A stretch of DNA of 64,000 bases from Butyricimonas faecalis (lineage in GTDB: Bacteria; Bacteroidota; Bacteroidia; Bacteroidales; Marinifilaceae): positions 124,001 through 188,000 of the forward strand of contig NZ_CP032819.1 in assembly GCF_003991565.1 (NCBI RefSeq). The letters run 5' to 3'. The translations under genes were made by a program, and so were the position numbers. This document shows, piece after piece, positions 2,541-16,987 of the stretch (its first letter is position 1; each line of letters opens with the position of its first letter). The notes beneath the pieces were generated by a model, which was given only the letters and a program-made list of their open reading frames with translations, ran no database searches and was not told the origin of the DNA.

Positions 2541-3677
2541 TTAATAATATTCCAGAATTACCGGGTTGTCATTTTCATTTATCTTGGAGATGATTCTTTG
2601 AGAATCACTTCCTCTTTTTATTTGTCGAATGTCTTGGACCGAAGGTTCCAAGATAAGAAGTATGCTATCATCACTTTCTCCCATATTTAGTGATGAGATA
2701 AAATTCAAGTTATTGTCAGATGAAAAAATATCATTTATGATTCTGGTGTTAGGTGCAAATTGTATGGTTTGTTGTTTTGAATTAGAGAGGATGTGTAAAT
2801 AACGTTTTTTGTCTTTGTGGGACACGATATATAGTTTTTTGTTCATGTACCGGAGGGTTTTTATGAAAGTGTAGTTTTTCAGGTATTTAAGGAAACCATA
2901 TTCGTGCTCTTGGAACAGTGCATCATATTGTAGCTCGCTCAACCAGTTATTTTCCGTGTTGACGATGAATTTTTCCTGAAATTGTTTGTGTTCCGGATCG
3001 TAGGATACGCAACTGTTTGTCAGGTCGATTTGGTAGATGAATTTATCTTTGTAAGGGATGAATTGCACGGGTTTGAGCATCGTGTTGGTTACTTTCGTGT
3101 TTACGCATGAATCGATGATATTTCCAGACGGGTCGGATAGGGAGATGAGGCTTTTGTTCTGTCCCGTCATAAGTAGTATGTAATTATCCGGTGTTTTCTT
3201 GAACTTGTTGACAACAAACGGGTAATAGATGCTTTTCACGTGTTGCATGGTTTCGGCGTTGTATATTTTGATGCAATTCATGTCACATAGCCATATCTCT
3301 TTCTGGCCGTTTTTCGAGTAAACATCAAAATCCCCGATGTACGTGTATTCGTCCGGCCCTCGTCCTATTTTTTCCAACGTGGACAAGTGTTTGCCTTCCT
3401 GGTTGAATGTTTCTATTTTTCTCTCGTTTGATAATATATAGAATACGCTGTCCCGTTTTATGATCTTGTCGATCTTGCCAACCAGGCATTTTGCTTTTGT
3501 TTCGAGAGGGATGACGCGGTAGTGTCGGGTAATTATTTCGGATAGTTTTATTTTAGAGTTTACCCCGTTGTCCGTCAGTAGGTATGGAACAAGCGTGTTG
3601 TTTTGATTTTTAGGCGTGACGTTACAAGCGGAAAGAAGGTAACCTAGTAAAATGATGATTTGTATTTTGTTGTTCAT
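2541..3677 (-). CDS. 6-bladed beta-propeller lipoprotein, family C
   Basis: A 378-residue lipoprotein: the signal peptide ends in LLSAC (Cys18). It carries the diagnostic glycine-rich loop IGRGPDEYTYIGDF (about residues 102-115) of the Bacteroidetes 6-bladed propeller families (DUF5128/NHL-like folds), and repeats of strands ending in polar turns as expected of a propeller. The C-terminus reads ENDNPVILEYY and matches the tails of the family C proteins at 6953-8110 and 11642-12721. No catalytic motif is visible. Propellers of this type are usually binding or scaffold modules on the outer membrane or in the periplasm; the ligand is unknown. It is packed head-to-tail with the family B gene upstream (20-base gap), so co-transcription is likely. 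Confidence 0.8.
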   Translation of the reverse strand: MNNKIQIIILLGYLLSACNVTPKNQNNTLVPYLLTDNGVNSKIKLSEIITRHYRVIPLETKAKCLVGKIDKIIKRDSVFYILSNERKIETFNQEGKHLSTLEKIGRGPDEYTYIGDFDVYSKNGQKEIWLCDMNCIKIYNAETMQHVKSIYYPFVVNKFKKTPDNYILLMTGQNKSLISLSDPSGNIIDSCVNTKVTNTMLKPVQFIPYKDKFIYQIDLTNSCVSYDPEHKQFQEKFIVNTENNWLSELQYDALFQEHEYGFLKYLKNYTFIKTLRYMNKKLYIVSHKDKKRYLHILSNSKQQTIQFAPNTRIINDIFSSDNNLNFISSLNMGESDDSILLILEPSVQDIRQIKRGSDSQRIISKINENDNPVILEYY

Positions 3678-3697
3678 AAGGGGTGATTTTATAGGTA

Positions 3698-4699
3698 TTA
3701 ATAGTTGAATCTTTTAATTTCAACCAATTCACTTTTGGGGGAATCTACTCCGCCTAGGAATTGTCTATTTGCTTCGTCAACAATGATAAAGTTTACAAAA
3801 AAGTCAAATTGATAAACTTTTTCCAGCATCCCATTCCAAGTAAATACTAGGAGATAAGGATGGTGGTTATATATTTTATTTGCTGGGAAGCCTGTCCATA
3901 GTATGTAACAAAAATGGGGGGTACTATACATTTTATATGACGTGACAAGCATATCCTCTGATAATTGAAATTCGGAGTAGTCAATTTCATCATTTGCGAG
4001 GTCAAGGGAAAGGCTTTTTTGTAGAGAGCCGTCAGAGTGATAAAAATTAATCAAATTAATATATTTGAATGCCGCAATGATGCTGTTATGTTGGGCATTT
4101 GCTGAAAGTATATGGGCGTAGGCATCACTTTTATTCCCTCTTCTTGATACGTAAAATTGAGGTTCGTAATCAATTTTTTTTATAATCTTGGCGTGTTTGT
4201 CGTAAAGGTAAAATAGTACGCTGTCTTCGCCTATGGGAGATAGGACAAAGGTTGAATCTATGATATTTAAATTTTGCGAGCGGGTTAGTTCGGGGGGTAA
4301 TATCGTGTTATGGATAGAGGTGTCGTTTTTTAAGTAAAACCGGGTTAAACGATTATGTATTAAATCATGGATTAATAGGGACGAGGTGTTTGTATCACTC
4401 TTGATGATCAACGGAAATTGAAATTCATTAGGTCCTCTGCCGGTAGCACCAAATTCGTATAGCATGTTTTTGGAGTTATTGCTGAAGATTTGAAATTGTT
4501 TTTCAGAGCAGCTATTTTGTAAACACAGGAATGTATCTTTTATGATTCCTTCCATGTAACATCCTGCCGGGATTTGAGAAATGGTTTCTCCTTTTATTTG
4601 AATGATATTATCGATGTGTAATTTTTCAATTTGAGTTGTTGACTGATTTTTGCAAGATAGGATGGAGAAAATGATAAAGGGTAAATAGATTAATTTCAT
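3698..4699 (-). CDS. 6-bladed beta-propeller lipoprotein, family B (TolB-like)
   Basis: A 333-residue lipoprotein with lipobox ILSC at residues 13-16. The early segment AGCYMEGIIKDTFLCLQ and the loop TGRGPNEFQFPL place it with the TolB-like 6-bladed propeller family. The last blade has the shared FTWNGMLEK motif, which in all A and B members follows the pattern W-[NDE]-G near the C-terminus. There are no catalytic residues. It sits between a family A gene (40 bases upstream) and a family C gene (20 bases downstream), so one transcript is likely. The role is unknown; ligand binding at the cell surface is an inference from the fold and the lipid anchor. Confidence 0.8.
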   Translation of the reverse strand: MKLIYLPFIIFSILSCKNQSTTQIEKLHIDNIIQIKGETISQIPAGCYMEGIIKDTFLCLQNSCSEKQFQIFSNNSKNMLYEFGATGRGPNEFQFPLIIKSDTNTSSLLIHDLIHNRLTRFYLKNDTSIHNTILPPELTRSQNLNIIDSTFVLSPIGEDSVLFYLYDKHAKIIKKIDYEPQFYVSRRGNKSDAYAHILSANAQHNSIIAAFKYINLINFYHSDGSLQKSLSLDLANDEIDYSEFQLSEDMLVTSYKMYSTPHFCYILWTGFPANKIYNHHPYLLVFTWNGMLEKVYQFDFFVNFIIVDEANRQFLGGVDSPKSELVEIKRFNY

Positions 4700-4739
4700 A
4701 AGTTGGGTAATTAGGGGTGTTATGTTTTATATATATGGT

Positions 4740-5774
4740 TTATTTGAGATAATTGCGAATATCGTATTTATAAATTTCTTCGTCATAAGGATTTAATCCA
4801 TAGATGTATCCGTTATTTTGATCAATGTCAAAAAAGCGGATATAGTTTGGTATGATAATTTTGTATATAGGTTCTCCATTCCAATCGAATACATGTATTT
4901 CAACACTTTTGTTTGCCTCTCGAATTTCTTTTGTTGAATGATTTATGTATAGAGCAAAAATGAATTTATCTACGGTTCTAATGTCTGAATAGAATATTTT
5001 CCTGTCCATGAAATCCTGTTGTGAAATTTCGTGTGGTGTATTTGATGTATGGTATATTGTTAAGGGGATAATTTCATCACCGTTAGTTGAATGAATAATG
5101 ATGTGATTCATATTAAACATGGCTAGTGCCATTTTTGTTTTATCCGGCGATATTGTCCCGATTATGTCGTAAATTGAAGCATCAAATTTTATATCTTTAG
5201 TGAAGATATTTTTTTGCGTTACAAGTTGTTGTTGTTTTAAATTGTATACGGTATAGTAAAGATTGTCCGTTGACGGGTAGGTGGCGAAAATGGAGTCATT
5301 TATATTGAACCAGTATGAATCAGTGATAGAGTCTAAAAAAAATCTTTTTTCAAACACGACTTTTTGTTCTTTTATAGATGATGTTAAATTTATTTCGGAC
5401 ACTTCACGGGTTAGATGGCTCGATATCCATATTTTCGCGTTTGACGAATCGATTGCAAATTGTTTGTTATAGGTTAAGGTTAAAAACTCATCGGCACCTC
5501 TTCCTGCAGATATATAATTTCCTAAGAATTTGAAATTAGGTAAAGAATAACACGTGAAGAATCCATCCTCTCCTTTTACTTTGAAACCGAGTAAAATGGT
5601 GTCTACGATGTACAAATTATTAATACCTATTATTTCGATATCTATTTTTTCAGCTGATGGGGTGATTGTTTTAGGAAAATGTGATATTTGTATGGGCTCA
5701 TTCGTAAAAATGGTTCTTTCTTTACATGCTATTATAGAAATAGTGCAAAGAATTATTGTAATTATTTTTTTCAT
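4740..5774 (-). CDS. 6-bladed beta-propeller lipoprotein, family A
   Basis: A 344-residue lipoprotein with lipobox IIAC (Cys17). Family A features are all present: a start reading ISHFPKTITPSAEKIDI, the glycine loop SAGRGADEFLTLTY, the penultimate-blade motif FDWNGEPIYK and the tail DEEIYKYDI. It is closest to the genes at 8341-9405, 9481-10512 and 13609-14637. Unlike the copy at 13609-14637, its tail does not open a second frame for a thioredoxin-like gene, because the ATG is ACG here. A family B gene follows after 40 bases, so the Trx and C members of the module seem to be lost at this place. Function unknown. Confidence 0.8.
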   Translation of the reverse strand: MKKIITIILCTISIIACKERTIFTNEPIQISHFPKTITPSAEKIDIEIIGINNLYIVDTILLGFKVKGEDGFFTCYSLPNFKFLGNYISAGRGADEFLTLTYNKQFAIDSSNAKIWISSHLTREVSEINLTSSIKEQKVVFEKRFFLDSITDSYWFNINDSIFATYPSTDNLYYTVYNLKQQQLVTQKNIFTKDIKFDASIYDIIGTISPDKTKMALAMFNMNHIIIHSTNGDEIIPLTIYHTSNTPHEISQQDFMDRKIFYSDIRTVDKFIFALYINHSTKEIREANKSVEIHVFDWNGEPIYKIIIPNYIRFFDIDQNNGYIYGLNPYDEEIYKYDIRNYLK

Positions 5775-5794
5775 TATAATATGTTTTTCATGTT

Positions 5795-6826
5795 TTAGAT
5801 ATCAAATTCGACTAAATAGGCATATTCCGGATCGCTGGTGTTAGGATATATAGAAAATAATTTCGTGTTGTCTTCATTGACAACTAAAGGAGTTATAAAG
5901 AATGGTATTTGCAATACGTTCTTTAGGTTTCCCTCCCAATCCATAATAAGAATTTGACAAGGATGATCTTGGGTAGCATTAAGTTGTTCGATGGGCATGT
6001 TCGCTCTTAATAAATAACAATATTCAGGGGTTGCATACATATCTATGATATAGATGGGATTGTCGTATGATATCCCTGTATGTTGCTTGGATTGGAATGG
6101 TTTTTTCAACATGGAAAATTGAATGTTTTTTAATAATGTTCCATTTGTATCATATAATTGGATAAGATCGAGGAATCTATATCCAACATATAAAACTTTT
6201 TTTTGAGAATTTGCGCAGGTGATGTTTTTATGGGCTGCAAATCTAATCTCGGGATTTTTAAAATAAAGTCCTGTATTATAATTAACCCAATGTATGGAAT
6301 CTGTGTCATAGTTGTAAATGAAGAATATGCCATCATTTATTTCTATCGTATTGCCAATGATGGTATTATTATCAATTTGGTTGAGATTTTCTGAAAAATA
6401 TAACTTTGATGGAAGGTTTCTCCCATTGATGAAATCATAAGCCGTGTTGACAAGTTGTTCATTCAAATATTTTTCATGGAATAGGTTAAGGTCATATATC
6501 TGAATGAGCGAATCTTTTTCGTGTAGTTTACAGTTCCTGTAAAAAAAAGGCATGTTGAATTCGTTGAATAACCGACCTTTTTCTCCATAACGGGAAATTT
6601 CTTGGAGAGAATCGTTGAACATGTAAATGTAACGATCTTCAGGAGAACATTCTGCAATAAAAAATAAAACAGAATCACGATATATTCCATTTGAGAAACA
6701 TTTTTCTTGTATTTGAATTTTTCTTGATGGTTGAATATCTCGTGAGATGTTCAATGGTGTGATTGTTTCTTTTCTACCACATGCTAATAGAAAAAATAAA
6801 GAAAATGTATATATAGTTTTTTCCAT
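5795..6826 (-). CDS. 6-bladed beta-propeller lipoprotein, family B
   Basis: A 343-residue lipoprotein with lipobox FLLAC (Cys16). The glycine loop is divergent (YGEKGRLFNEFNMPF, not GRGPxEF), but the position and the FNEF end are kept. The last blade has MDWEGNLKNVLQIPFF and the protein ends in YLVEFDI, as expected for family B. Its leader just before the ATG (an ACAATGACATATAA element followed by AT-rich bases) closely resembles the leader of the family B gene at 10579-11601, which supports this start. The 126 bases upstream hold worn tails of thioredoxin-like and family C genes. The A gene downstream begins after 20 bases. Confidence 0.78.
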   Translation of the reverse strand: MEKTIYTFSLFFLLACGRKETITPLNISRDIQPSRKIQIQEKCFSNGIYRDSVLFFIAECSPEDRYIYMFNDSLQEISRYGEKGRLFNEFNMPFFYRNCKLHEKDSLIQIYDLNLFHEKYLNEQLVNTAYDFINGRNLPSKLYFSENLNQIDNNTIIGNTIEINDGIFFIYNYDTDSIHWVNYNTGLYFKNPEIRFAAHKNITCANSQKKVLYVGYRFLDLIQLYDTNGTLLKNIQFSMLKKPFQSKQHTGISYDNPIYIIDMYATPEYCYLLRANMPIEQLNATQDHPCQILIMDWEGNLKNVLQIPFFITPLVVNEDNTKLFSIYPNTSDPEYAYLVEFDI

Positions 6827-6842
6827 ATTTGTTATTTATATG

Positions 6843-6950
6843 TCATTGTTTTGAAGAAGGGTATCTGTTTTCTTTTTCATACTTGGATTTCCAACTAAAA
6901 AAAAGAATTGTAATACAAATAAATAATATAGTGGAACCTAATGTATTCAT
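6843..6950 (-). pseudogene. Composite scar: Trx-like tail joined to a family C propeller tail
   Basis: On the minus strand, positions 6895-6878 read VGNPSM, matching the GSPIG end of the thioredoxin-like lipoprotein at 13071 and the GNPIM remnant at 10520. The next bases, about 6877-6846, align with the KETDNPILF coding end of the family C gene at 11642, but with small indels. A leader like that of the other family B gene then runs into the ATG at 6826. In a different frame the same stretch encodes a 35-residue peptide with one membrane segment. I favour a decayed scar over a real micropeptide because two unrelated tails are recognisable in it. Confidence 0.5.
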
Positions 6951-6952
6951 GG

Positions 6953-8110
6953 CTATTTTGTATAAATGAATAATAAATGTGGATTATTGTTTTCAAGATT
7001 TTCTTGAGAGACTAATGGCGTATATATTAATTTGATATGATTCGTAGTATCTTGATGAAGTTTTAAAAGTGTATGAAGATGATCTTCATCAGCAATCGTA
7101 AAAATGAAATAATTGTTTTTTGCATATTTGGGATTGGAATATATAGATGCGAATTTTTCGGGTAAAGTTTCTGCGTTAAATAGATAAGGTCGTTGTTGTT
7201 GTTTGTTATAGTATAACTCGTAAAATTTCCCTCCTTTAAAAAAATTGCAGTAAATATATTTATCATTTTCAAGTAAATAGTCTGGTTCAGAAATGTAATT
7301 GTCTCGTCGGATATAAGCGATGCTAGTTTCGATTTTTCCATCAAAAGATTCAAATGAAATATTGTATTTTTTAAAATCAAACTGATATTGCGGGATGATG
7401 CTATCCGGTGTTATTTGAAACACGTTGTAATCAAATATGGATTTAAACAACACGGATTTTTTATATTTTGTAAATGTTTGATTTAATTCCGACTGGCTGT
7501 GTTGGGCGTAATGGGGAATATTTAATAATAATTTTTTTATTTCATGACTTCCGATGTTTAAGATAGAAATGCATGAATTTTTATCTGAATATCCTGTGAA
7601 TAGGGCGAGATGATCATTATCGATATTTGAAATGTTATCGATATTAATATTTCGATCAATTTTAATTTCTTGAATAAGATCTCCTAAAAGATTGTAGAAG
7701 ATGATTTTTCCTCCCAGGTTATCTAATATCACGATAGTATTGTCTTCTAATGTCGTAAAATCTGTAATAGACAGAAATTCTCCCGGTCCTCGTCCTTTCC
7801 TTGCTATTTTAGATATTCCATTTCCATGTATATCATATATATATATACATTGAGATAGAGGATCATTTAAAAAGAAATATGGATCATTAAAATATAAATT
7901 ATTTATTCCTCCAATTATAAAAATTGAATCTGTTTTTAGTGAAACTATTTTTATGCTATCGATAGAATTTGATAATTCAAGTGATTGATTTTTATATTTA
8001 TCGAAATCTATTGATAATGTTTTTCTGAACTTGATATTTTCTACTTTTCCTTTTTGGCATGAAGAAAAAAAGATTAGACACATTGAAATTAATATATAGT
8101 GTATTTGCAT
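6953..8110 (-). CDS. 6-bladed beta-propeller lipoprotein, family C
   Basis: A 385-residue lipoprotein with a signal peptide ending in FFSSC (Cys19). The loop RKGRGPGEFLSITDF is an intact copy of the propeller signature. It is followed by blades with I-Y-D and F-Y-N repeats. The C-terminus NNPHLLFIYTK corresponds to DNPILFIYNSK of the 11642 gene. The gene is strongly AT-rich, like its neighbours. Upstream lies the truncated family B remnant (8117-8338) with 6 bases between, and downstream a scar of Trx and C tails. Function unknown; a surface or periplasmic binding role is inferred only from fold and lipidation. Confidence 0.8.
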   Translation of the reverse strand: MQIHYILISMCLIFFSSCQKGKVENIKFRKTLSIDFDKYKNQSLELSNSIDSIKIVSLKTDSIFIIGGINNLYFNDPYFFLNDPLSQCIYIYDIHGNGISKIARKGRGPGEFLSITDFTTLEDNTIVILDNLGGKIIFYNLLGDLIQEIKIDRNINIDNISNIDNDHLALFTGYSDKNSCISILNIGSHEIKKLLLNIPHYAQHSQSELNQTFTKYKKSVLFKSIFDYNVFQITPDSIIPQYQFDFKKYNISFESFDGKIETSIAYIRRDNYISEPDYLLENDKYIYCNFFKGGKFYELYYNKQQQRPYLFNAETLPEKFASIYSNPKYAKNNYFIFTIADEDHLHTLLKLHQDTTNHIKLIYTPLVSQENLENNNPHLLFIYTK

Positions 8111-8116
8111 AGTGTT

Positions 8117-8338
8117 TTATATTTCGTATGTCACAATGCAGAAATCTAAATCGATCCCTATTGCATATAATGTATTAGAATCTCCTTTTGCTGCAATGCG
8201 TAGGATGGGCATACTCATGTTTATAATCTTTTTTAAATTGAAATTATAATCATATACAAATATGGTATTAGGAACCTTTGATAAATCTCGAATTCCTCCA
8301 GTTTGTTTTATACTTTTAAATATAATTGCTGATATCAT
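8117..8338 (-). pseudogene. Truncated family B propeller: C-terminal 60 residues fused to a Trx-like start
   Basis: The 73-codon frame has no signal peptide. From residue 12 it matches the last 61 residues of the family B protein at 10579-11601 almost throughout (GGIRDLSKVPNTIFVYDYNF against AGIRDLSQVPNTIFVYDYDF, and the same DFCIVTYEI end). The first residues, MISAIIFK, match the frame that starts the thioredoxin-like gene inside a family A tail (compare MISAITFK at 9432-9521). The same bases, 8339-8316, read YDISNYI-stop in the family A frame. This is a deletion joint of A/Trx-start to B-tail. It is probably not a functional protein, though the frame stays open. Confidence 0.7.
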
Positions 8339-8340
8339 AA

Positions 8341-9405: not shown

Positions 9406-9431
9406 TTTATTTATTTGATATGATAATTGTA

Positions 9432-10512: not shown

Positions 10513-10519
10513 TTATTCA

Positions 10520-10582: not shown

Positions 10583-11601
10583 ATTTCGTATGTCACAATG
10601 CAGAAATCTAAATCAATGCCTACTGCATATATTGTGTTAGAGTTTCCTTTAGTTTCGATACGCAAAATAGGCATTCCCATATCAATGATTTTTTTAAGAT
10701 TAAAATCGTAATCATATACAAATATTGTATTAGGAACTTGAGAAAGATCCCGAATACCTGCTGTACGTTTGGTAGAGGAAGGAGCATTTTCTTCCTTTTG
10801 TAATGTGATAATATAATCTTTTGTAAGAATTATTTCGTGAGGAACTAGAGCTTCTTCAATAAAGTGAATATCTCCGTTTTTGATTTCATAAAAGTTTTTA
10901 GAAGATGTTTTTTCCCATTTTAATTGGAAATTATTTCCTTCTTTTTCGTATAAAGCAATGTAAGGGAATAATCTTGCACTATAAATTAATTTTTGATTAT
11001 ATGGATTATAAGATAAAGTTCCTTGTCGAGAGTTATAGTAGTCTTTGAGTTTTTCTTTTATTGGACTCTTGCCAAAAAAGGATACAGTTGAATCTTGATG
11101 AATCCATTGAAAGAGTTGTTCGTTTTGAGGATGTGTTGAAATAAATTCTCCTTCTGCTATTTGAACGATATCTAGGCAATCTTCGATGGGTAAAGACGGA
11201 AGTAGAATGAAAGGATCTTTCATTACTAGTAAGCTGTCAATAGAGTAGTAGGCTTGTTTGTCTTGATTAAGATCATAGGTGAATATTTTATTTCCTATAG
11301 ACTTAATGGATAGAGGGGTGATAAATTCCTTTGGACCTCGTCCAAACTCTCCTATAGCTTTAATTTCTCTTCTAGTATTTATATCGATAATGTGTAAAAA
11401 TTTTTCTGGATTAAAAGGATCTTCCCAAACTAGATAATGATCGCCACACAAAATTAATGCTCCTGGTATCTGTGTGAAAAGAGTATCTTGGATGATAGAT
11501 GAAGGAGTTAGGGATAAATGTTGAACTTTGGAAGAGTTATTTTTGCAAGCAGAAAATGTTAGGATGCAATATAACCATAAAAATGTATTTATTAGTTTCA
11601 T
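10579..11601 (-). CDS. 6-bladed beta-propeller lipoprotein, family B
   Basis: A 340-residue lipoprotein with a signal ending in TFSAC (Cys19). It contains the loop FGRGPKEFITPL and a C-terminal blade YDYDFNLKKIIDMGMPI that ends in DFCIVTYEI. This C-terminal region is duplicated as the fragment at 8117-8338. The segment after the glycine loop (KIFTYDLNQDKQAYYSIDSL) is typical of the TolB-like propellers of Bacteroidetes. The leader before the ATG resembles that of the family B gene at 5795-6826. The upstream family C gene ends 40 bases before, which gives the C-B order that I take as ancestral. Confidence 0.8.
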   Translation of the reverse strand: MKLINTFLWLYCILTFSACKNNSSKVQHLSLTPSSIIQDTLFTQIPGALILCGDHYLVWEDPFNPEKFLHIIDINTRREIKAIGEFGRGPKEFITPLSIKSIGNKIFTYDLNQDKQAYYSIDSLLVMKDPFILLPSLPIEDCLDIVQIAEGEFISTHPQNEQLFQWIHQDSTVSFFGKSPIKEKLKDYYNSRQGTLSYNPYNQKLIYSARLFPYIALYEKEGNNFQLKWEKTSSKNFYEIKNGDIHFIEEALVPHEIILTKDYIITLQKEENAPSSTKRTAGIRDLSQVPNTIFVYDYDFNLKKIIDMGMPILRIETKGNSNTIYAVGIDLDFCIVTYEI

Positions 11602-11641
11602 AATGAGATTATTAATGTTGTTATTTCTTATATGTCATTGT

Positions 11642-12721
11642 TTATTTAGAATTGTATATGAAAAGAATGGGGTTATCTGTTTCTTTTAGATCGTGTAATA
11701 TAGGGTTTTCTTGAACAACATGTGGAAAGTATTCTATAAGTGATGCAGCATCTATCCAATCGATGATTTTATTGTCTTTTACAATTTGTGGGAAAAAGCG
11801 AAAGTCTGTTATTAAATCATTTGTGATATATCCGTTTTGAGACTTGTGCGAGTTCATATCATACAAATAAAAATTGCGTTTATCTTGATACACGTAATCG
11901 ATTAGCAGATAATTATTGCATAAGAATATATTTCTTCTTACGATGTAAGGGAATTTGTTGTCATTAATATCGTATTTTGTGATGTTTGTTCGTTCTTCTG
12001 GAAATGTTTTGTCTCTAAAGTTAAGAGTATATATGGGAGTTGCGATTGTATCGTGTAGGGTGTATAATGTATTATTGAATCTTGGTGCAAAAATGAATGA
12101 ATTATTGTTTTGGGTGAAAACATTGGAGGTTATAAATGTGTTATTCCCCCAATTGTTGTTCCTTGGTAGATATCTGTTTAGAATTTTACCGCAGTTGTCT
12201 GCGAGATAAAATTGATAATCTTCTTTTTCTCCATTTCTTTCGGTATAAAGCATTATTTTGTCATGAATACAGTTTATTTCAGAAACGTAAAACGGGAAAT
12301 AAAGATCTTTCTGGAATTTCCAATCGTAATCGTAATGAAGAATTTTTTGTTGGGTGTAATCTAAAAGATATATGCCTTGTGAGTTCGTTGCTATGTCGTT
12401 AAGGTATAAATATTCTCCAGGGCCACGTCCTAAATTAGATAATTGGTGAATAAACTCTCCTTTTTGATTGAATACTTGAGCGGTATTGTTTTTTTTATCG
12501 AGTATTATAATATTATTTTCATGAAATTCAATATCAGAGATATCTCCAGTTAGAATTGAATCTGATGTTTCTAGTTTAACAATATTGCAATTGGTAATAA
12601 AATTTGATAGTGGGTAATTACAAGTTTTATCATAATTGATAATAATGGTGTTGATATCTTTCGTGGAAGAGTTTGAACATGAAAGTGTGATTATGATGAA
12701 TAATAAATGGTAGAATTTCAT
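11642..12721 (-). CDS. 6-bladed beta-propeller lipoprotein, family C
   Basis: A 359-residue lipoprotein with lipobox TLSC (Cys15). The glycine loop LGRGPGEYLYLNDI is followed by the blade motif NSQGIYLLDYTQQKI. The protein ends in KETDNPILFIYNSK. This tail is the reference for the C-type remnants at 9432-9467 and about 6846-6877. The product is probably anchored in the outer membrane or facing the periplasm; no enzyme motif is seen. The upstream gap holds a broken transglutaminase-like start, a Cys-rich peptide tail and a hairpin, so this gene may follow a partial transcription stop. Confidence 0.8.
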   Translation of the reverse strand: MKFYHLLFIIITLSCSNSSTKDINTIIINYDKTCNYPLSNFITNCNIVKLETSDSILTGDISDIEFHENNIIILDKKNNTAQVFNQKGEFIHQLSNLGRGPGEYLYLNDIATNSQGIYLLDYTQQKILHYDYDWKFQKDLYFPFYVSEINCIHDKIMLYTERNGEKEDYQFYLADNCGKILNRYLPRNNNWGNNTFITSNVFTQNNNSFIFAPRFNNTLYTLHDTIATPIYTLNFRDKTFPEERTNITKYDINDNKFPYIVRRNIFLCNNYLLIDYVYQDKRNFYLYDMNSHKSQNGYITNDLITDFRFFPQIVKDNKIIDWIDAASLIEYFPHVVQENPILHDLKETDNPILFIYNSK

Positions 12722-12790
12722 GATTACTTTTTAGGGGGATGTTTAATATACTTTTTGTGTTTGGATAGTGATTGGGTATTTCATATCCTC

Positions 12791-12811
12791 CCCCTCTTGA
12801 AAAAAGAGGGG
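12791..12811 (-). terminator. Hairpin after a Cys-rich peptide remnant
   Basis: CCCCTCTT pairs perfectly with AAGAGGGG around a short A-rich loop. No long U-tract follows on the minus strand, so termination may be weak. An analogous hairpin follows the intact NVEALA-type gene at 14653-14672, which suggests that both came with such a peptide gene. Confidence 0.45.
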
Positions 12812-12850
12812 AAGTGTTTGTGACAAGCTCTAAAATTATCCATTTGAAAT

Positions 12851-12922
12851 TTAGCATTCTTGTGGAGTACAAGTAGGTTCTGTTTCAGGGTGAACACATT
12901 GAATATGTATTTTACCTTTTGC
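12851..12922 (-). pseudogene. C-terminal remnant of a Cys-rich NVEALA-type peptide gene
   Basis: Read on the minus strand in the frame ending at 12851, the bases encode AKGKIHIQCVHPETEPTCTP followed by QEC and a stop. A short chain with three Cys residues and a Cys next to the end resembles the Cys-rich ends of NVEALA-type peptides; the intact 99-residue peptide at 14676 ends in CTCSNY. The body and start are gone, replaced by the transglutaminase-like fragment. The hairpin about 40 bases downstream supports the reading. The identification rests on the Cys pattern and context, not on an alignment. Confidence 0.45.
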
Positions 12923-12934
12923 CGGACTACGTAG

Positions 12935-13059
12935 GAATATTGCCAGTGTCCTCCCCGGTTTCTCCCGGCTTGTGATAGGGTTTCTTCCACTCCTGCCGGG
13001 TAACGGGAGCAGGCGAGTATTGAGGTACAAATTAAGATGGTGTATAAAATGGGTTTCAT
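12935..13059 (-). pseudogene. Truncated duplicate of the transglutaminase-like lipoprotein gene
   Basis: The frame starts with a lipoprotein signal ending in ILAC and continues RYPAGVEETLSQAGRNRG, the same as residues 20-37 of the 713-residue protein at 358-2499. It then jumps to GHWQYSYVVRQ, which matches YWQHSYVARQ at residues 114-123 of that protein. The missing part equals 225 bases in the intact gene, bounded by the direct repeat CCCGGTT (2166-2172 and 2391-2397), so it is an in-frame deletion. After VVRQ the similarity ends and the frame runs on to a stop at 12781. Not expected to be functional. Confidence 0.75.
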
Positions 13060-13070
13060 GGTGAAGAGTT

Positions 13071-13649
13071 TTATGTATTATAAGGACATATTTCAGATTC
13101 TTTTTTTATAATTTGTTTGTATAGATTCCAAATGTGGTGATTGCCGATAGGAGATCCTATTAATAGAATTTTATTATCCTTATCTAACAAAAATGTTTGA
13201 TATTGAGGATTTTTAGGAAATTTGTTTAATGTATTCATTTTATTTGTATAGTCATAAAATATTGGATAACTGAATTTATTCTTTTTGATCCATGAATTGA
13301 CAATATCGTAATCTTTAGCATGTACAACGAAAAGAAAAGACGTGTTTTGAGAGATCGTATCTATTTCTCGAATTAATTTTCCCCAATCATATAATTTTAA
13401 TCTACATTCAGTACATATATTTGTATCTATTACTGTTAGAATTTTGAATTCTTTTTTTAACATAAATTGCCAAAGAGAATCTTGACTTGTTGTATTGATT
13501 GAATCAGGAAATGTAATTTCTTGATTAAGCCACCTTTTTACAATTGTTCTTGCATCTTCTTTTGATTCTAGGTAAGAACAGGAGAATAATATAATGTAGA
13601 TCATCATATTATATACACATGCTAATATCATATTTGTATATTTCTTCAT
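13071..13649 (-). CDS. Thioredoxin-fold lipoprotein
   Basis: A 192-residue protein. The first 24 residues form a lipoprotein signal: Lys2/Lys3, a hydrophobic core, then LFSC with Cys24. A C-x-x-C pair in NICTECRLKLYDW (Cys79, Cys82) after a beta strand, and a later YPIFYD and QTFLLDKDNKILLIGSPIG segment, give a thioredoxin/TlpA-like fold. It probably acts on disulfides in the envelope, perhaps of the Cys-containing peptides or of propellers in the same operon (inference). The start lies inside the 3' end of the family A gene (41-base overlap, +1 frame), so translation is likely coupled. Remnants of sister copies lie at 9432-9521, 10520-10582 and 6843-6950. Confidence 0.75.
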   Translation of the reverse strand: MKKYTNMILACVYNMMIYIILFSCSYLESKEDARTIVKRWLNQEITFPDSINTTSQDSLWQFMLKKEFKILTVIDTNICTECRLKLYDWGKLIREIDTISQNTSFLFVVHAKDYDIVNSWIKKNKFSYPIFYDYTNKMNTLNKFPKNPQYQTFLLDKDNKILLIGSPIGNHHIWNLYKQIIKKESEICPYNT

Positions 13650-14637
13650 CGGATGTGATTCCTAATAGTTGTTTATGTTTTTCGTCTATTGTAAAGTATA
13701 TGATATTTTGGGGAATTATTAATTTTTGGATGGATATACCATCCCAGTCAAAAATATGTATTTCAATTTTTCTAGGTGTGTCCCAAGAGGAATTGGGTTG
13801 GTTGATATATAAAGCATATATATATTTCATGGTAGATCCTACCAAAGAATAATATACTATTCGTTCTTCACGGGGGGTATTTAGAACTTGTTTAATGGAA
13901 GGAGTTGGAGTATATATAGAAAGAGATTTTCTATATTTAAAATTTGACGAATAAATATTTATTTGATTAAAAAAAATCATTGAAGATGCAAAGCGTTTAT
14001 TATTAGGACGCAAAGTTGTTGTCATGGCGAATATTTGGTCTTGATAACTATGATTGGGATATGGGTTTTTGAACATTTTGATCGGTTCTAAAAGTTTATC
14101 AGTAGATAATTCGTATGTTTTGAAAAACACGTTTTCGGGATATGGGTCAATATTTATTAATGTATCGTTAATTAGAAAACCGTATCCTTCTTGAACCCTG
14201 TCTAGATATATACAAGAATCTATTATGGTTTTTTCTTGTTTAATTGATTCAGTTAGATTGAATAAACTTATTCTTAAATTTGCATCATCTTTGAGCCACA
14301 TGCGAATGCCTAAAGAATCATTGAAATATTGGCCATTATATTGTATCGAAAGAAATTCGTTTGGACCTCTTCCTGTAGTTAAACAAGCTCCAAGTTTGTT
14401 TAGGGTGTTTGTACTATATATGTCGAAATAATTATCTACTCCTTGAGCTTTAAAACATATAAGTAAAGTGTCTATAATTATTAAATAGTTCGTACCTATA
14501 CTTTCAATATTAATTTTTTCTCCAAAGAGCGTGGTGTCTTTAGGAAATTTATCAATAATAATGTTCTTACTATTGAAAAAATTACTTGTTGTACAACAAG
14601 TGAAAGAGAGTGTAAAAAATAGTAATATATATTTCAT
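13609..14637 (-). CDS. 6-bladed beta-propeller lipoprotein, family A
   Basis: A 342-residue lipoprotein with a signal ending in SFTC (Cys14). Family A marks are all there: IDKFPKDTTLFGEKINI, TTGRGPNEFLSIQY, LFNLTESIKQEKTIID, FDWDGISIQK and the tail DEEIYKYDISMCI. Its 3' end doubles as the coding start of the thioredoxin-like gene in the next frame. The gene follows the NVEALA-type peptide gene and its hairpin by a short gap. As the least disturbed member of an A-Trx pair, it shows the probable ancestral order. Confidence 0.82.
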   Translation of the reverse strand: MKYILLFFTLSFTCCTTSNFFNSKNIIIDKFPKDTTLFGEKINIESIGTNYLIIIDTLLICFKAQGVDNYFDIYSTNTLNKLGACLTTGRGPNEFLSIQYNGQYFNDSLGIRMWLKDDANLRISLFNLTESIKQEKTIIDSCIYLDRVQEGYGFLINDTLINIDPYPENVFFKTYELSTDKLLEPIKMFKNPYPNHSYQDQIFAMTTTLRPNNKRFASSMIFFNQINIYSSNFKYRKSLSIYTPTPSIKQVLNTPREERIVYYSLVGSTMKYIYALYINQPNSSWDTPRKIEIHIFDWDGISIQKLIIPQNIIYFTIDEKHKQLLGITSDEEIYKYDISMCI

Positions 14638-14652
14638 AATTTATTTATTAGA

Positions 14653-14672
14653 AGAGGGGAAAACTCCCCTCT
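14653..14672 (-). terminator. Stem-loop just after the NVEALA-type gene
   Basis: On the minus strand AGAGGGGA pairs with TCCCCTCT around a GTTT loop, four bases after the stop codon of the peptide gene. The sequence after it is U/A-rich (TCTAATAAATAAATT) but has no clean U-run. It could work as a partial terminator or as a 3' end stabiliser that raises peptide mRNA over the propeller mRNA. Confidence 0.5.
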
Positions 14673-14675
14673 GAT

Positions 14676-14975
14676 TTAATAATTACTGCAAGTACACACT
14701 TCTGATGCAGGGTAATAATTGGGCCATTTGGAACATTTACAACCAGCATCATCATATATTTTGTAAGCAGTAAACCCCGCTCTAGGCGTACAACCATATG
14801 TGCCTTTAGGCTTTGATTTATCTCCACCAGGAGTTTCACCTCTTGCCAGTGCTTCGATGTTTTTCAAAGCAAGTCCACTTTTGGACTGATCTTTAGATAG
14901 GTTGATACTCACGTTCATTGCAAAAAACAATGCAATACAAATGCTTGCTAATAGTACGAAAATACTCTTCTTCAT
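14676..14975 (-). CDS. NVEALA-type Cys-rich peptide
   Basis: A 99-residue protein starting MKKSIFVLLASICIALFF, a single hydrophobic leader. A more upstream ATG would place a non-hydrophobic extension before this leader, so I chose the inner start. The segment LALKNIEALARGE is the NVEALA-family core (consensus N-[VI]-E-A-L-A). The mature part after GG at residues 50-51 is short, with five Cys residues (GCTP, GCKC, VCTC). Members of the NVEALA family are small exported Bacteroidetes proteins of unknown function, found beside beta-propeller genes. Processing after the leader is inferred. The Cys residues and the nearby Trx-fold lipoprotein and DUF1573 protein suggest disulfide chemistry. Confidence 0.8.
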   Translation of the reverse strand: MKKSIFVLLASICIALFFAMNVSINLSKDQSKSGLALKNIEALARGETPGGDKSKPKGTYGCTPRAGFTAYKIYDDAGCKCSKWPNYYPASEVCTCSNY

Positions 14976-15101
14976 AGCTGTTATTATTTTTATAATTTTA
15001 AATTCTTTCCGTCCTTTTTCAAGTATATATCCTTTCAACGAGAGAGATGACGTGTGTCTCAAAATTTTTTATCTTTACACTTTCTTCTTTTTAGGAGAGG
15101 A

Positions 15102-15156
15102 GGTGGTGTCGGAGGTTTTCTTGCAAGGATTGTTCCGGCACCGCCATTTTTCTCCC
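15102..15156 (+). terminator. Terminator-like hairpin on the plus strand, inside the minus-strand operon
   Basis: GGTGGTGTCGGA (15102-15113) pairs with TCCGGCACCGCC (15134-15145) through 12 base pairs, two of them G-U on the plus-strand RNA, and is followed by ATTTTTCTCCCTTTT. On the minus strand the same arms have two C-A mismatches and no U-run. No plus-strand gene precedes it. It could stop antisense transcripts, or be a structured piece of the leader of the peptide gene downstream on the minus strand. Confidence 0.4.
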
Positions 15157-15185
15157 TTTTATTATTTTTATAGGGTTAAACTTTC

Positions 15186-15605
15186 TTATTCTGTCACGAA
15201 ACCTACTAGCCTTAGGTCGTGCAACTTGAGCGTGGTGTTACATAACACCTGTATTTTTTTCGTAAAACGTCCTAGCGAGTTGGGCTTGAACGTGACAATG
15301 ATTTCTCTTGTTTGTCCGGGTAGGACGGGGCGTTTCTCCCATTGTGGGTTGGTGCAACCGCAGGTGGTAAGCACGTTTTTTATGAGGAGGGGATGCGAAC
15401 CCGTGTTCTTTAGAGTAAATATAGCCTGTGGTTTTTCGTCATAACGGATTGTTTTCAGGTTGATAGAATCTTGTGGGATTTCGATGGTCGTGAGGGGCGC
15501 ACTGCTAAAGTTGTCAGGTTGAGTGGCGAACGCGAACCAAGTGGCGATAATACCCAAAGAGGTTATCAGTAACACGATGAATAATATGAAGTGTTTCTTT
15601 TTCAT
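15186..15605 (-). CDS. DUF1573 domain membrane-anchored protein
   Basis: A 139-residue protein with one N-terminal membrane segment (about residues 6-27) and an Ig-like DUF1573 domain: FTLKNTGSHPLLIKNV, then TTCGCTNPQW, then PGQTREIIVTFKP. The CGC motif in TTCGCT is the usual mark of this family. DUF1573 proteins are common in Bacteroidetes envelopes; their function is unknown, though the Ig-like fold suggests binding. It lies 10 bases after the family B-like propeller gene in the same operon. The gap downstream (15061-15185) separates it from the peptide gene. Confidence 0.82.
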   Translation of the reverse strand: MKKKHFILFIVLLITSLGIIATWFAFATQPDNFSSAPLTTIEIPQDSINLKTIRYDEKPQAIFTLKNTGSHPLLIKNVLTTCGCTNPQWEKRPVLPGQTREIIVTFKPNSLGRFTKKIQVLCNTTLKLHDLRLVGFVTE

Positions 15606-15615
15606 GATTCTATGC

Positions 15616-16638
15616 CTATATATTATAGCGAACTAGTTGAGCGTCGGGAGTTGTCCCGTAGAGTGCGTTTTCTTCCAGGTCGTAAGAGATGAATGTTGCC
15701 ATTTGAGGGAGAGTGCGAGTTTCGAGTAATGTACCGTCCCAATCGAAAACGAGCAGGGTTGAACAGTTTGCTATGTTTTGTTTTTCATCTTTGTATGTTT
15801 TTCCGGAATAAAGCACAAAAATGCGGTCATTTGAAACGGCAACATCCTGAAATCCTGCGAGGTTATCCATGTAGTATGCCACTGGGCCATGAGCCTTTGG
15901 GTCTATGTCGACATGAGGGTAATAATAACAATGACGGCAAACTAATGAAATGGAGTGTTCTTCGATGTTGCAAATATCGATTTGTCCGCTACGAATGTCA
16001 GTACAGACGAATGCTTTATTATCTGGGCGAAGACATAAAACCGTACTGGCCCAAAGAATACTTTGCAGGTGTTGGGATAGGTCAGGATACTGTGGATGTT
16101 CGGGATACGAGACAAAATAGGTCGTCTGATTATTGTCTAAAGAATAGAATCGGTAACGACCTTGTTTGTAGAGCCCGGTTGAGATGATAAAATTATCTCC
16201 TTGTATGACGGAAAGATGTTTTTCTTCTCCGGTTAATGCAAGGGGGTGTGTGGCAGAACGACTCGATGTAGTCGGGTTGTGGCGATGGAGTATTCCTGTA
16301 TAGAAATCGAAAGCTGCAAGTTCTCCCCGTTGATTTACAGAAAGATTGTAAATGGAATAGGCCTCGTTTGGACCACTGCCGAAGGGTAACCACTGATTCG
16401 TTGTATGTGTGATTAAATCAATAAGGCTGACATTGGCTTCTCCATGCGGTTGGCCTATGGCAAGGATATCTCCGTGTTTGGTTATTTTGGTCGGCCGAGA
16501 AATACCATAGTCGGAAAGGTCTGCAACGAAATCAACATGGACTTCGTTACCGGAAGTTTGAAATTCTTGTGGTATGTTCAAGTCGTTGGTCTTGGAACAT
16601 GCTGCAAAAAATATAGCGATATAGATTATTTTCTTCAT
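15616..16638 (-). CDS. 6-bladed beta-propeller lipoprotein (B-like)
   Basis: A 340-residue lipoprotein with lipobox FAAC (Cys14). The loop is FGSGPNEAYSIYNL, a relaxed form of GRGPxEF. The later part has FDWDGTLLETRTLP and the end ALYGTTPDAQLVRYNI, so it joins the propeller set but is the most divergent member. Its base composition is also richer in G+C than that of the array below 14.7 kb. It directly follows the first NVEALA-type peptide gene (7-base gap), with no hairpin between. I therefore take the peptide, this propeller and the DUF1573 gene as the promoter-proximal unit. Function unknown. Confidence 0.78.
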   Translation of the reverse strand: MKKIIYIAIFFAACSKTNDLNIPQEFQTSGNEVHVDFVADLSDYGISRPTKITKHGDILAIGQPHGEANVSLIDLITHTTNQWLPFGSGPNEAYSIYNLSVNQRGELAAFDFYTGILHRHNPTTSSRSATHPLALTGEEKHLSVIQGDNFIISTGLYKQGRYRFYSLDNNQTTYFVSYPEHPQYPDLSQHLQSILWASTVLCLRPDNKAFVCTDIRSGQIDICNIEEHSISLVCRHCYYYPHVDIDPKAHGPVAYYMDNLAGFQDVAVSNDRIFVLYSGKTYKDEKQNIANCSTLLVFDWDGTLLETRTLPQMATFISYDLEENALYGTTPDAQLVRYNI

Positions 16639-16645
16639 AATAGAT

Positions 16646-16876
16646 TTATTTATTTGTGTTTACACGCATTCCTCCATATGCAATTCCATCATTGTCAACA
16701 CAAAATCCACCTCCTTCTACACATTTCCGTTTTGTCTCGTTTTCTCCCCGAGAGAGCATTTCGATATTGCGGAGTTTTAAATCATTTTCTTTTTCCTGAT
16801 AAATAAAACTGTAAAGTAAGCATAATATTATGCACAAGCATACGAATTTCGCATTTTTTTTGAAAATTGTTTTCAT
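16646..16876 (-). CDS. NVEALA-type short peptide, first gene of the array
   Basis: A 76-residue protein: basic start MKTIFKKNAK, one hydrophobic segment (about residues 11-25), then LRNIEMLSRGE, a variant of the NVEALA core (compare LKNIEALARGE in the peptide at 14676). The short mature part has two Cys residues (RKCVEGGGFC). It is the first gene downstream of the divergent promoter, 40-50 bases after the predicted start of transcription. A secreted or surface peptide is the family expectation; receptor, partner and protease are unknown. It could be the substrate or signal on which the propellers act (inference). Confidence 0.7.
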   Translation of the reverse strand: MKTIFKKNAKFVCLCIILCLLYSFIYQEKENDLKLRNIEMLSRGENETKRKCVEGGGFCVDNDGIAYGGMRVNTNK

Positions 16877-16923
16877 GTGATCATTATTTTAATTAATATT
16901 GTAATTAGTATTTCTTCCTTGAA

Positions 16924-16954: not shown

Positions 16955-16987
16955 TAACTTTTATGCTAATAAAATGAGAAAAATAGA

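Follow-up and report, generated by a model that had tools for sequence, protein, structure and literature searches.

Our data suggest that small Cys-rich peptides, lipid-anchored beta-propellers and, for one peptide type, a membrane sensor form a peptide-signal-controlled weapon or recognition system. The array analysed here lies in a 64,000-nucleotide stretch of Butyricimonas faecalis DNA, referred to here as the window. The reading we prefer, to which we give a probability of roughly 45%, is that of a system of secreted peptides equipped with a dedicated sensor for them, in which class I peptides are the signal, class II peptides are the effectors and the propellers are their matched partners.

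In the Bacteroidales that we sampled, a propeller lies on the same strand at most 420 bp downstream of 93 of 111 peptides; of the others, 2 run off their contigs and 16 lack one. The 20 random control regions (398 kb) contain no propeller. Chance co-location of peptide and propeller is ruled out by this difference, and the proposal of the preliminary description that both belong to one system held when their co-occurrence was checked. For a prediction set beforehand, 20 sensor-kinase regions were fetched for having no PF14055 match nearby. Eight of them hold a propeller, and in all eight inspection by eye shows a small ORF, unannotated and encoding a C-x6-C ring, between kinase and propeller. 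The other 12 show no ring ORF, peptide or propeller by eye (two end at a contig edge), and the sensor there may see something else. These data bear on whether there is a single system at all. The propellers could be a common Bacteroidales lipoprotein family undergoing tandem duplication, with the peptides hitch-hiking, as 98 of 191 propellers have no adjoining peptide and, of the 36 family genomes that lack an NVEALA match, 10 contain TolB_like propellers. We give this reading almost no credence, since propeller-less peptides are rare, random regions with a propeller number 0 of 20, and hidden peptides turned up where predicted, which already contradicts it. Ten propeller loci were fetched that have no PF14055 match; at 2 of them the propellers follow Cys-rich peptides with a double-glycine leader, and the locus also encodes a C39 exporter. 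A profile of 59 propellers matches a solved relative, 4raa (a putative exported protein), over positions 25-344 (E 2e-14). This profile scores higher against NHL propellers from animal proteins; these matches are partial.

Within the window, the eleven propeller lipoproteins first described are borne out as 11 intact ORFs on the minus strand (2541-16638). At curated cut-offs, 10 of the 11 match DUF5128/PF17170 (2541-3677, 6953-8110 and 11642-12721, the last with E 3e-42) or TolB_like/PF15869 (3698-4699, 4740-5774, 8341-9405, 9481-10512, 10579-11601, 13609-14637 and 15616-16638). The eleventh (5795-6826) has no Pfam match and is a BLAST relative of the propeller at 3698 (E 1.6e-29). Two further reading frames, both on the minus strand, are fragments rather than genes: 8117-8338 is a C-terminal propeller piece (82.5% over 63 aa to L057:4244-5260 of genome G127), and 12781-13059 is what is left of a transglutaminase-like lipoprotein gene, matching a G127 gene at 89% over 35 aa; its first approximately 36 residues resemble the product of 358-2499. 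The array extends past the left edge of the window, where eight further propellers and one more NVEALA peptide lie between minus 15.1 and minus 4.3 kb in window coordinates (C1:108933-119669).

We found that the peptides comprise two classes. Class I peptides carry a C-x6-C or C-x7-C ring and lie divergent to a membrane sensor. The form with two to three Cys and C-x6/7-C spacing is seen in 27 of 27 regulator-adjacent peptides versus 15 of 84 others (p 2e-15). All 22 kinase-adjacent peptides have a ring spacing of 6, and all 5 that adjoin a one-component regulator have a spacing of 7. Class II peptides have their leader in common with class I while their Cys-rich cores are unrelated, and no regulator was detected within 300 bp of any peptide of class II form. 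Across 53 same-genome pairs, leader identity is 79% and core identity 25%, compared with 23% for random cores. The window contains one of each class on the minus strand. The peptide at 14676-14975, a class II candidate effector, scores 38.4 bits against the PF14055 cut-off of 27 and has a NIEALARGE leader and a variable core with 5 Cys; the TolB_like propeller directly downstream (13609-14637, E 1e-9) is its putative cognate partner. The peptide at 16646-16876, the class I candidate signal, falls below the same cut-off (15.4 bits) and is matched by a profile built from relatives (E 1.7e-8); it has a hydrophobic N-terminus, a NIEMLS leader motif and a single C-x6-C ring (CVEGGGFC). The TolB_like propeller at 15616-16638 (E 2e-15) is the conserved partner of this peptide, and its class I counterparts share 67% identity in G127 and 62% in G126. 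Thus, two NVEALA peptides are present as first described, one by Pfam and one by the relatives' profile, but they are not of one kind, and only the 2-Cys peptide goes with the kinase.

The divergent kinase/regulator pair, also named in the preliminary description, is present by Pfam matches on the plus strand. The histidine kinase (16988-18367; HATPase_c E 4e-22), a candidate class I peptide receptor, has two predicted TM segments, the H-box LHSLKTP and a periplasmic sensor domain of family A1 (17090-17611). The OmpR-type response regulator (18343-19050; Response_reg E 1e-16) is RprY-like across its whole length, though this match is below cut-off, as is its Trans_reg_C score of 23.2 bits (cut-off 26.2). 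The divergent promoter region between peptide and kinase (16877-16987) contains TAACTTTG on the minus strand (16924-16931), which we take to fit the Bacteroidetes -7 box. We found that the same periplasmic sensor domain occurs within a histidine kinase in one family and on a DNA-binding domain in others; the two versions are homologous (E 3e-10; 10 of 10 column shuffles fail). A full-length kinase search at E 1e-40 finds only 3 of 56 family genomes, and its relatives among named genomes are three distant kinases with 25-28% identity. Neighbour clustering and a sensor-domain profile place the family near peptides in many genomes, which rules out a species-specific bystander and upholds the assignment of the pair to the peptide-propeller system, with kinase and regulator profiles that are mildly circular as they were built from families near peptides. 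In 27 held-out regions the kinase family occurs in none and the one-component type beside a peptide in three. Across 21 loci, co-variation of the class I core with the sensor persists once the kinase domain (partial r 0.39, p 0.001) or the response regulator (partial r 0.63) is accounted for. The core tracks the propeller nearly as well (partial r 0.36 with the kinase domain controlled for), and with the sensor controlled for it also tracks the kinase domain (partial r 0.21, p 0.007), so common descent accounts for much of the co-variation. Divergence is similar in the response regulator and the kinase (37% and 31%), which would fit replacement of both together as well.

We hypothesized that class I and class II precursors, which have in common a hydrophobic signal for export and, in the leader, a helix of the form N-[IV]-E-A-L-A-x-x-E, would be exported to the periplasm, that a type I signal peptidase would probably remove the leader at A-x-A, and that the Cys-rich cores would be oxidised with the help of the CxxC thioredoxin-like lipoprotein described below. 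The class I product, a ring peptide with one C-x6-C (or C-x7-C) bond, would be the signal. Its sensor would be the periplasmic domain of the kinase encoded divergently or, in other families, that of a one-component membrane regulator. Sensing would then switch on the peptide-propeller operon. The class II products would be variable secreted effectors with a putative killing function, and small Cys-rich peptides of this kind are probably secreted. The propeller directly downstream would be each peptide's matched partner, most probably a lipoprotein conferring immunity, with a receptor role less probable, and the peptide-less array could be a store of partners for the peptides of other strains. 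A rival reading involves pure cell-cell signalling or kin recognition, with no killing: all peptides would be signals, the propellers surface receptors, and the orphans would receive the signals of other strains. The tie between class I peptides and the sensor domain and the co-variation of propeller and class I core both agree with it. We regard it as unlikely, since no regulator was detected close to class II-form peptides, their cores resemble one another no more than random cores do, which is commoner for effectors, and single genomes contain up to nine PF14055 matches (eight in three others).

We compared the gene content of 76 peptide loci with that of the 20 control regions. A thioredoxin-like family with a CxxC motif is found in 39 of 76 peptide loci and 0 of 20 controls, and CxxC is kept in 42 of 43 members of at least 150 aa. 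The window member (13071-13649, minus strand), a lipoprotein reported at the outset, is present and scores just under its own Pfam cut-off (AhpC-TSA, 24.5 bits against 26); redox folding, as originally suggested, is plausible. The DUF1573 (Ig-like) protein of the preliminary description (15186-15605, minus strand; PF07610 E 3e-28) is likewise present, with DUF1573 in 13 of 76 loci. These two families would agree with class I peptides being internal periplasmic probes whose disulfide state or degradation is read by the kinase, with the propellers as chaperones or scavengers of misfolded Cys-rich peptides, and the entire pathway can be read as periplasmic. Such envelope or redox sensing leaves unexplained the hypervariability of the cores beside a constant leader and the match between ring size and regulator type, and we consider it distinctly unlikely.

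Returning to the secreted-peptide system, other families were compared in the same way. A Wzy_C + TPR family is enriched (24 of 76 versus 1 of 20, p 0.011); its window member, a membrane protein at 19195-20979 on the minus strand (PF04932 E 1e-20), is the regulator-side neighbour. SPase I occurs in 21 of 76 loci and 0 of 20 controls. A short SPase I is present in all six genus genomes and is not linked to NVEALA peptides in three of them; with the same paralogue unlinked in three congeners, the case for an SPase I dedicated to the window's cluster is weakened. The transglutaminase-like lipoprotein that was initially included in the array is present (358-2499, minus strand, 713 aa) but lies outside the interval 2541-16876 and has no Pfam match of its own. 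It is syntenic in G126 and G127, with counterparts at 62% in locus L050 and 83% in L057. The link of its family to the system is weak (23 of 76 versus 2 of 20, p 0.054). Two relatives match Transglut_core (PF01841) weakly (E 1e-3 and 4.5e-3), and a role as leader peptidase has no evidence beyond these matches.

Export through the RND/MFP pump beside the array is unsupported, as MFP (13 of 76 versus 2 of 20) and RND (6 of 76 versus 1 of 20) families are not enriched; the outer-membrane step is thus without a candidate, and no outer-membrane export route was found. NVEALA peptides have, by eye, a hydrophobic N-terminus instead of a double-glycine leader, such leaders being seen only at the two other propeller loci. 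A linked C39 transporter was rejected as exporter, with no PF03412 match in an NVEALA locus by coordinates (56 family genomes, many fragmented). The same pump enters a further reading, in which a metal or substrate bound by the Cys-rich peptides would be captured by the propeller lipoproteins, with the kinase as sensor of the load. Cys-rich cores, lipid-anchored propellers and an RND/MFP pump adjoining the window's array and present in one double-glycine-leader locus agree with a metallophore or nutrient-peptide role of this kind, as does a TonB-dependent receptor family in 6 of 55 first-set loci, five of which are one syntenic genus locus. In the part of the table available from PMC10434189, O-antigen ligase family and 6-bladed propeller genes of B. 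thetaiotaomicron (BT0662, BT0664) are listed in the iron stimulon, with second-column values of 0.132 and 0.353 that, taken as p-values, are not significant. SusD occurs in 3 of 55 first-set loci, and the TonB/SusD loci are nearly all one syntenic genus locus, with these genes 5-7 kb from the peptide. Since TonB and SusD are missing from the window's array and most loci, the pump families are not enriched, and the cores have no common metal motif by eye, we find little support for the nutrient-peptide role raised earlier and consider this reading very unlikely.

The window propellers from 2541 to 12721 are orphans, with no peptide adjoining. Their counterparts in congener G127 include peptide-adjacent propellers: the TolB_like propeller at 8341-9405 is 98.6% identical to one beside a class II peptide, and 5795-6826 is 91.8% identical to a peptide-adjacent propeller. 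The propeller at 11642-12721 has an orphan counterpart there (73%), and 6953-8110 has no counterpart of at least 45% among the other propellers compared. For unique cross-genome pairs that include a class II-adjacent propeller, the partner is an orphan in 7 of 7 (five such propellers; not significant alone), and class II-class II propeller pairs, expected from frequencies in approximately 2 of 16, were not observed, which is suggestive only. For an effector-immunity pair one would expect a partner gene beside the effector and orphan partners in relatives. The propeller gene does adjoin the peptide; orphans are seen in relatives, in numbers not significantly above chance. Some orphans may have a missed peptide. 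The toxin-antitoxin reading first put forward does not fit in its intracellular sense, because the parts are lipoproteins and leader peptides; a secreted effector with an immunity partner would fit better. No known toxin fold was found, PADLOC anti-phage defence models gave 0 matches for seven window proteins (class I peptide, 8 of 11 propellers, kinase and regulator left out), and plasmid carriage gave no match with one propeller as query. The mRNA of the class II peptide contains a two-part RNA hairpin in its 5' leader (15093-15156, minus strand). Rfam gave no family at gathering score and two matches at chance level (E 0.8-0.9).

We found no description of NVEALA or DUF5128 in the literature searched. 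There, Pfam accessions and protein-name phrases led only to papers matching the string pf14055, which by title and opening of the abstract concern Plasmodium or enzyme profiles. The peptide-propeller system is undescribed in the same literature, and one B. thetaiotaomicron propeller gene is listed in the table of PMC10434189. Peptide pheromones of this kind and propeller immunity arrays are likewise absent from the literature searched. Tentatively, we propose that Bacteroidales possess their own peptide pheromone system, in which a Sec-exported ring peptide matured by signal peptidase would act on a dedicated periplasmic domain carried by both histidine kinases and ToxR-like one-component regulators, and would control leader-sharing hypervariable Cys-rich effectors with immunity-giving beta-propeller lipoproteins in large orphan arrays. 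If true, Bacteroidales would talk and compete via peptides using parts that databases now annotate as domains of no assigned function, and PF14055, PF15869 and PF17170 would gain functions. Orphan arrays of candidate immunity proteins would record past competitors. A candidate receptor domain and a synthesisable candidate signal (core 30-40 residues) would make Bacteroidales peptide communication directly testable.

Pheromone-controlled class II bacteriocin loci of Gram-positive bacteria (blp, pln, sil) encode small leader peptides, one of them tied to a kinase/regulator pair, together with variable effector peptides, matched-partner genes and arrays of peptide-less partner genes. The loci studied here are similar in that a signal peptide gene adjoins histidine kinase/regulator genes (the divergent pair beside the class I peptide), and in their variable candidate effectors, matched partner genes and peptide-less partner arrays. 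They differ in that NVEALA peptides have a hydrophobic N-terminus and NVEALA motif in place of a double-glycine leader, with no C39 exporter near them in 56 family genomes, while the partners are propeller lipoproteins and sensing is ascribed to a periplasmic domain that in some cases is part of a one-component regulator. Polymorphic toxin and orphan-immunity loci (T6SS, CDI) combine a constant leader, a swapped C-terminal part, a matched downstream partner and orphan partners in relatives. The peptide-propeller loci are similar in these respects, with the propellers as putative partners, but their variable part is a short Cys-rich peptide (core approximately 30-90 residues), not an enzyme domain, and no marker of a secretion system was noticed. 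Such loci are treated in a review (PMC3482391) and a Bacteroidales study (PMC10470768), each available in part. By the partial descriptions at hand, the immunity protein Tsi1 resembles a fragmented propeller and in this respect the array propellers, from which it differs in being a partial one (PMC3391265), and the propeller protein TolB binds a colicin toxin peptide as a translocation portal, not as an immunity protein (PMC2821528). Bacteroidetocins are Cys-containing secreted Bacteroidales peptides with a double-glycine leader, and an ABC transporter with a double-glycine peptidase domain, and no immunity protein was found for them in the available part of the source (PMC6671954); the words propeller, two-component and histidine kinase are absent from that part. 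Unlike them, the NVEALA system is without the double-glycine leader, the corresponding peptidase transporter and the 42-residue, 4-Cys mature peptide. As in the Bacteroidetocin loci described there, Cys-containing Bacteroidales peptides are accompanied by a thiol oxidoreductase-type gene in the same locus.

The window (C1:124001-188000, in a genome of 4.98 Mb on two contigs) contains 11 intact propeller lipoproteins, two small peptides with NVEALA-type leaders, a CxxC thioredoxin-like lipoprotein and a DUF1573 protein, all on the minus strand at window positions 2541-16876. On the opposite strand, a histidine kinase is encoded together with an OmpR-type regulator, from 16988 to 19050. The propellers form about three or four sequence groups. 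Two remnants within the array, the end of a propeller (8117-8338) and the start of a transglutaminase-like gene (12781-13059), are signs of recombination or deletion. The array extends past the window edge, with eight additional propellers and one more NVEALA peptide on the same strand (C1:108933-119669), and the same contig has a further locus of this kind at approximately 2.42 Mb. Consecutive genes downstream of the extended array, outside the window's left edge (C1:100033-108296), encode signal peptidase I together with two RND pump proteins and a membrane fusion protein (MFP). A hypothetical protein of Butyricimonas faecihominis shares 70% identity with the class I peptide, whose relatives are named in the sources solely as hypothetical proteins. 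No NCBIfam model scored above cut-off for either window peptide or the three propellers tested, and PADLOC gave no match for the class II peptide or three window propellers.

Across 119 Bacteroidales genomes and 56 genomes of the window's own family, we found 65 distinct matches to PF14055, the NVEALA leader-peptide family. A same-strand propeller lies within 300 bp downstream of 52 of these matches, and 61 have some propeller within 3 kb. Of the four matches without a propeller, two appear to be spurious long proteins (G047 and G143), a third lies at the end of a contig and the fourth seems genuine. From another draw, of 393 genomes of the order with at most 15 candidates scored in each, came 15 previously unseen genomes with matches, from which 27 regions were fetched. 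Together the two sets yield 111 distinct peptides that have both a leader motif and at least 20 core residues; 12 motif-less profile matches of the second set (two being the same stretch), one of the first set and a few short cores were left out. A propeller follows within 420 bp for 93 of the 111 peptides, while two run off contigs and 16 have none (first set 66, 2 and 6; second set 27, 0 and 10).

We compared 76 peptide loci, some of which overlap one another and are thus not fully independent, with 20 random control regions of 19.9 kb from four of the genomes; six loci were excluded (two spurious loci, a control, two picked for their propellers and one that overlapped). The controls contained no propeller, NVEALA-like peptide, thioredoxin-like or signal-peptidase family member. 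Propellers occur at 71/76 peptide loci versus 0/20 controls (p 2e-16), thioredoxin-like proteins at 39/76 versus 0/20 (p 6e-6), signal peptidase I at 21/76 versus 0/20 (p 0.004), Wzy_C at 24/76 versus 1/20 (p 0.01), DUF1573 at 13/76 versus 0/20 (p 0.04) and transglutaminase-like proteins at 23/76 versus 2/20 (p 0.05). MFP (13/76 versus 2/20, p 0.35) and RND proteins (6/76 versus 1/20, p 0.55) are not enriched. A TonB-dependent receptor family lies 5-6 kb from the peptide at six first-set loci (L051:17376-19688, L058, L068, L070, L076 and L077), five of which are one syntenic class I locus of the genus.

Neighbour clustering recovered a kinase family in 15 genomes and 23 loci, on the opposite strand in 25/26 cases at a median distance of 169 bp, and also a regulator family. 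We found that every peptide with a detected regulator on the opposite strand no more than 300 bp upstream (27/111) has the class I form, defined as a core no longer than 41 residues, containing two cysteines (three in two cases) and a C-x6-C or C-x7-C spacing. This form occurs in only 15 of the 84 peptides without a detected regulator (Fisher p 2e-15), and in two or three of those 15 the regulator was probably missed only through contig ends or the ORF start called. The ring spacing is 6 beside kinases (22/22, all from the window's own family) and 7 beside the other regulator type (5/5). The latter, in genomes G095, G211 and G324, is a single protein with a transmembrane region, a periplasmic domain, a second transmembrane region and an end matching the regulator profile, interpreted as a DNA-binding domain of the winged-helix type. 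The periplasmic domains of this protein and of the kinases are homologous by hhalign (probability 96.7, E 3e-10), and a local run gave 97.2 versus 0.1-0.3 for 10 column-shuffled controls. Thus one sensor domain with two kinds of output stands beside the same kind of peptide. The one-component sensor is rare elsewhere (profile matches in 3/393 genomes of the order), and the H box is retained in the kinases, as judged by eye.

The sensor also led to putative peptides hidden from annotation, and a prediction made from it was borne out. Profile A1, built from 25 sensor domains (22 from peptide-adjacent kinases, three from other kinases of the same loci), was searched in 56 genomes of the family and matched in 20: 17/19 of those with real NVEALA matches versus 3/37 others, with 15 of the 17 present by construction since A1 rows derive from them. 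Several sensors away from any PF14055 match sit approximately 1 kb from a propeller; this observation was noted before 20 further sensor-kinase regions were fetched. All eight regions holding a propeller (L143, L146, L148, L149, L152, L154, L157 and L158) contain, by eye in the ORF list, a small, unannotated ORF between kinase and propeller whose product begins with a hydrophobic stretch and carries a C-x6-C ring. The NVEALA motif is not recognisable in L146, L152 and L158, and the ORFs of L152 and L149 have extra cysteines. Read in the same way, the 12 propeller-less regions (L144, L145, L147, L150, L151, L153, L155, L156 and L159-L162; two end at a contig edge) contain no such ring-peptide ORF; L145 has a divergent ORF with C-x7-C but without a hydrophobic start. 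A Wzy_C family gene lies near 6/12 of these propeller-less loci.

We found that the two peptide classes differ in how they associate with propellers. Reciprocal-best propeller pairs between genomes at 50% identity or more (59 rows including five repeats) comprise 38 class I-class I, nine orphan-orphan and seven class II-orphan pairs, the last involving five class II-adjacent propellers. No class II-class II pair was observed versus approximately 2 of 16 expected from class II and orphan frequencies, an absence that is suggestive only. The peptide-less window propeller at 8341-9405 is 98.6% identical to a propeller directly after a class II peptide in the congener G127, that at 5795-6826 is 91.8% identical to another such G127 propeller, and a peptide-adjacent propeller of the congener G126 is 56% identical to an orphan of the window's genome. 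On a FastTree phylogeny of 188 propellers, class I adjacency, assigned by peptide form with or without a regulator, requires 10 changes (shuffled mean 34, minimum 29), and 23/37 class I-adjacent propellers fall together in a single pure clade with good support. For class II adjacency, 45 changes are required (shuffled mean 48, minimum 42): class II peptides come and go beside propellers of many branches. When the leaders of two peptides of one genome are similar (53 pairs; mean 79% over 28 residues), the cores are scarcely more alike than random ones (25% versus 23%), and 48/53 fall below the random 95th percentile. Between genomes, the cores of 27 such pairs are 34% identical; 16/27 fall below that percentile, and the higher ones are class I.

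Identity between the window's genome and G127 is 83-95% for Wzy_C, DUF1573, transglutaminase-like, MFP and one RND protein, 43% for the thioredoxin-like protein, 31% for the kinase and 37% for the regulator; the class I peptide gave no BLAST match. The divergence of kinase and regulator among congeners looks as if the pair had been replaced or were under diversifying selection. When window genes including 16988-19050 are set against the G127 and G126 loci together (L057 and L050), kinase and regulator are 31-37% identical, Wzy_C, DUF1573, transglutaminase-like and MFP 58-89%, and the thioredoxin-like protein 43-57%. Over 21 loci, the class I core tracks the sensor with the kinase domain removed (partial r 0.39, p 0.001) or the regulator removed (0.63), the propeller with the kinase domain removed (0.36), and the kinase domain with the sensor removed (0.21, p 0.007).

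A two-part hairpin is common to the 5' mRNA leaders of all seven class II peptides compared from the window's genome, G126 and G127; it is located at window 15093-15156 (minus strand), L010:6538-6603, L056:7688-7752, L057:9673-9736 and 12511-12575, and L050:8613-8672 and 14535-14599. Three of its 14 consensus pairs are changed on both sides, the RNAalifold covariation term is slightly unfavourable (+0.25), and individual sequences fold more stably than their shuffled versions (z -2.8 to -3.8). In six genus genomes, the only full-strength matches to the hairpin model are these seven, besides reverse strands and weak partial matches. Weak forward matches among 46 sources, one in L089 (E 0.04) and one at a single place shared by L043/L044 (E 0.44), precede class II peptides from other genera. 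No Rfam family reached its gathering score for the hairpin. Strong local folds (z < -3), not all with the two-part shape, occur upstream of 22/74 class II peptides, some of them in other genera, 3/34 class I peptides and 3/70 other genes.

Propellers also accompany other exported peptides. In a sample of ten propeller loci without a PF14055 match, there are two (L163 of G148 and L164 of G170, both genomes lacking PF14055 matches) where DUF5128-type propellers directly follow Cys-rich peptides that carry double-glycine leaders (L163:1665-3190; L164:13857-17018) and where a C39 peptidase exporter is also encoded, which we read as a second type of export for the same partner family. These peptides match no Pfam family, and L164 also encodes an MFP, two RND proteins and an outer-membrane beta-barrel protein. 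Five loci (L165, L166, L167, L171 and L172) have an NVEALA-like or distant leader, three ending in A-x-A (partly by eye). At L169:4775-6088, the place of the leader peptide directly upstream of the propeller is taken by a Cys-rich protein whose domain is of the chitin-binding peritrophin-A type (CBM_14), and no peptide was found beside the propellers of L168 and L170. Leaders, with export signals assigned by eye, may be cut at A-x-A, because they take the forms EALA, EALT, EALG, EAFG, AYA and AMA and signal peptidase I is linked. The signal peptidase I argument is weaker for the window, since this paralogue occurs in all six genus genomes and is unlinked in three.

We infer that the class I peptide would be sensed by the kinase, which is the best supported step of the model. 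For the propellers, we favour an immunity role over a receptor role because class II peptides have no nearby regulator, their turnover is effector-like and orphan partners were apparently left behind. The immunity protein Tsi1 is described as like a fragmented propeller (PMC3391265), and the propeller protein TolB is reported to bind a colicin peptide (PMC2821528); these precedents indicate that propeller folds can act in such roles.

NVEALA and DUF5128 were not mentioned in the literature searched, outside which most subscription papers and all bioRxiv preprints fall, and searches of the same literature on Bacteroides peptide pheromones, Bacteroidales bacteriocins, propeller immunity and the Pfam numbers listed nothing on this system. 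Two genes separated by two locus numbers in a table of the B. thetaiotaomicron iron stimulon belong to the O-antigen ligase family and to the 6-bladed propellers, respectively (PMC10434189). Excerpts of a Bacteroidales RiPP survey (PMC10352776) and of the bacteroidetocin paper (PMC6671954) deal mainly with GG-leader peptides with C39 transporters. By its parts, the locus fits no known system compared. Pheromone-controlled bacteriocin loci are a known kind, and the proposed working of the present system resembles that kind.
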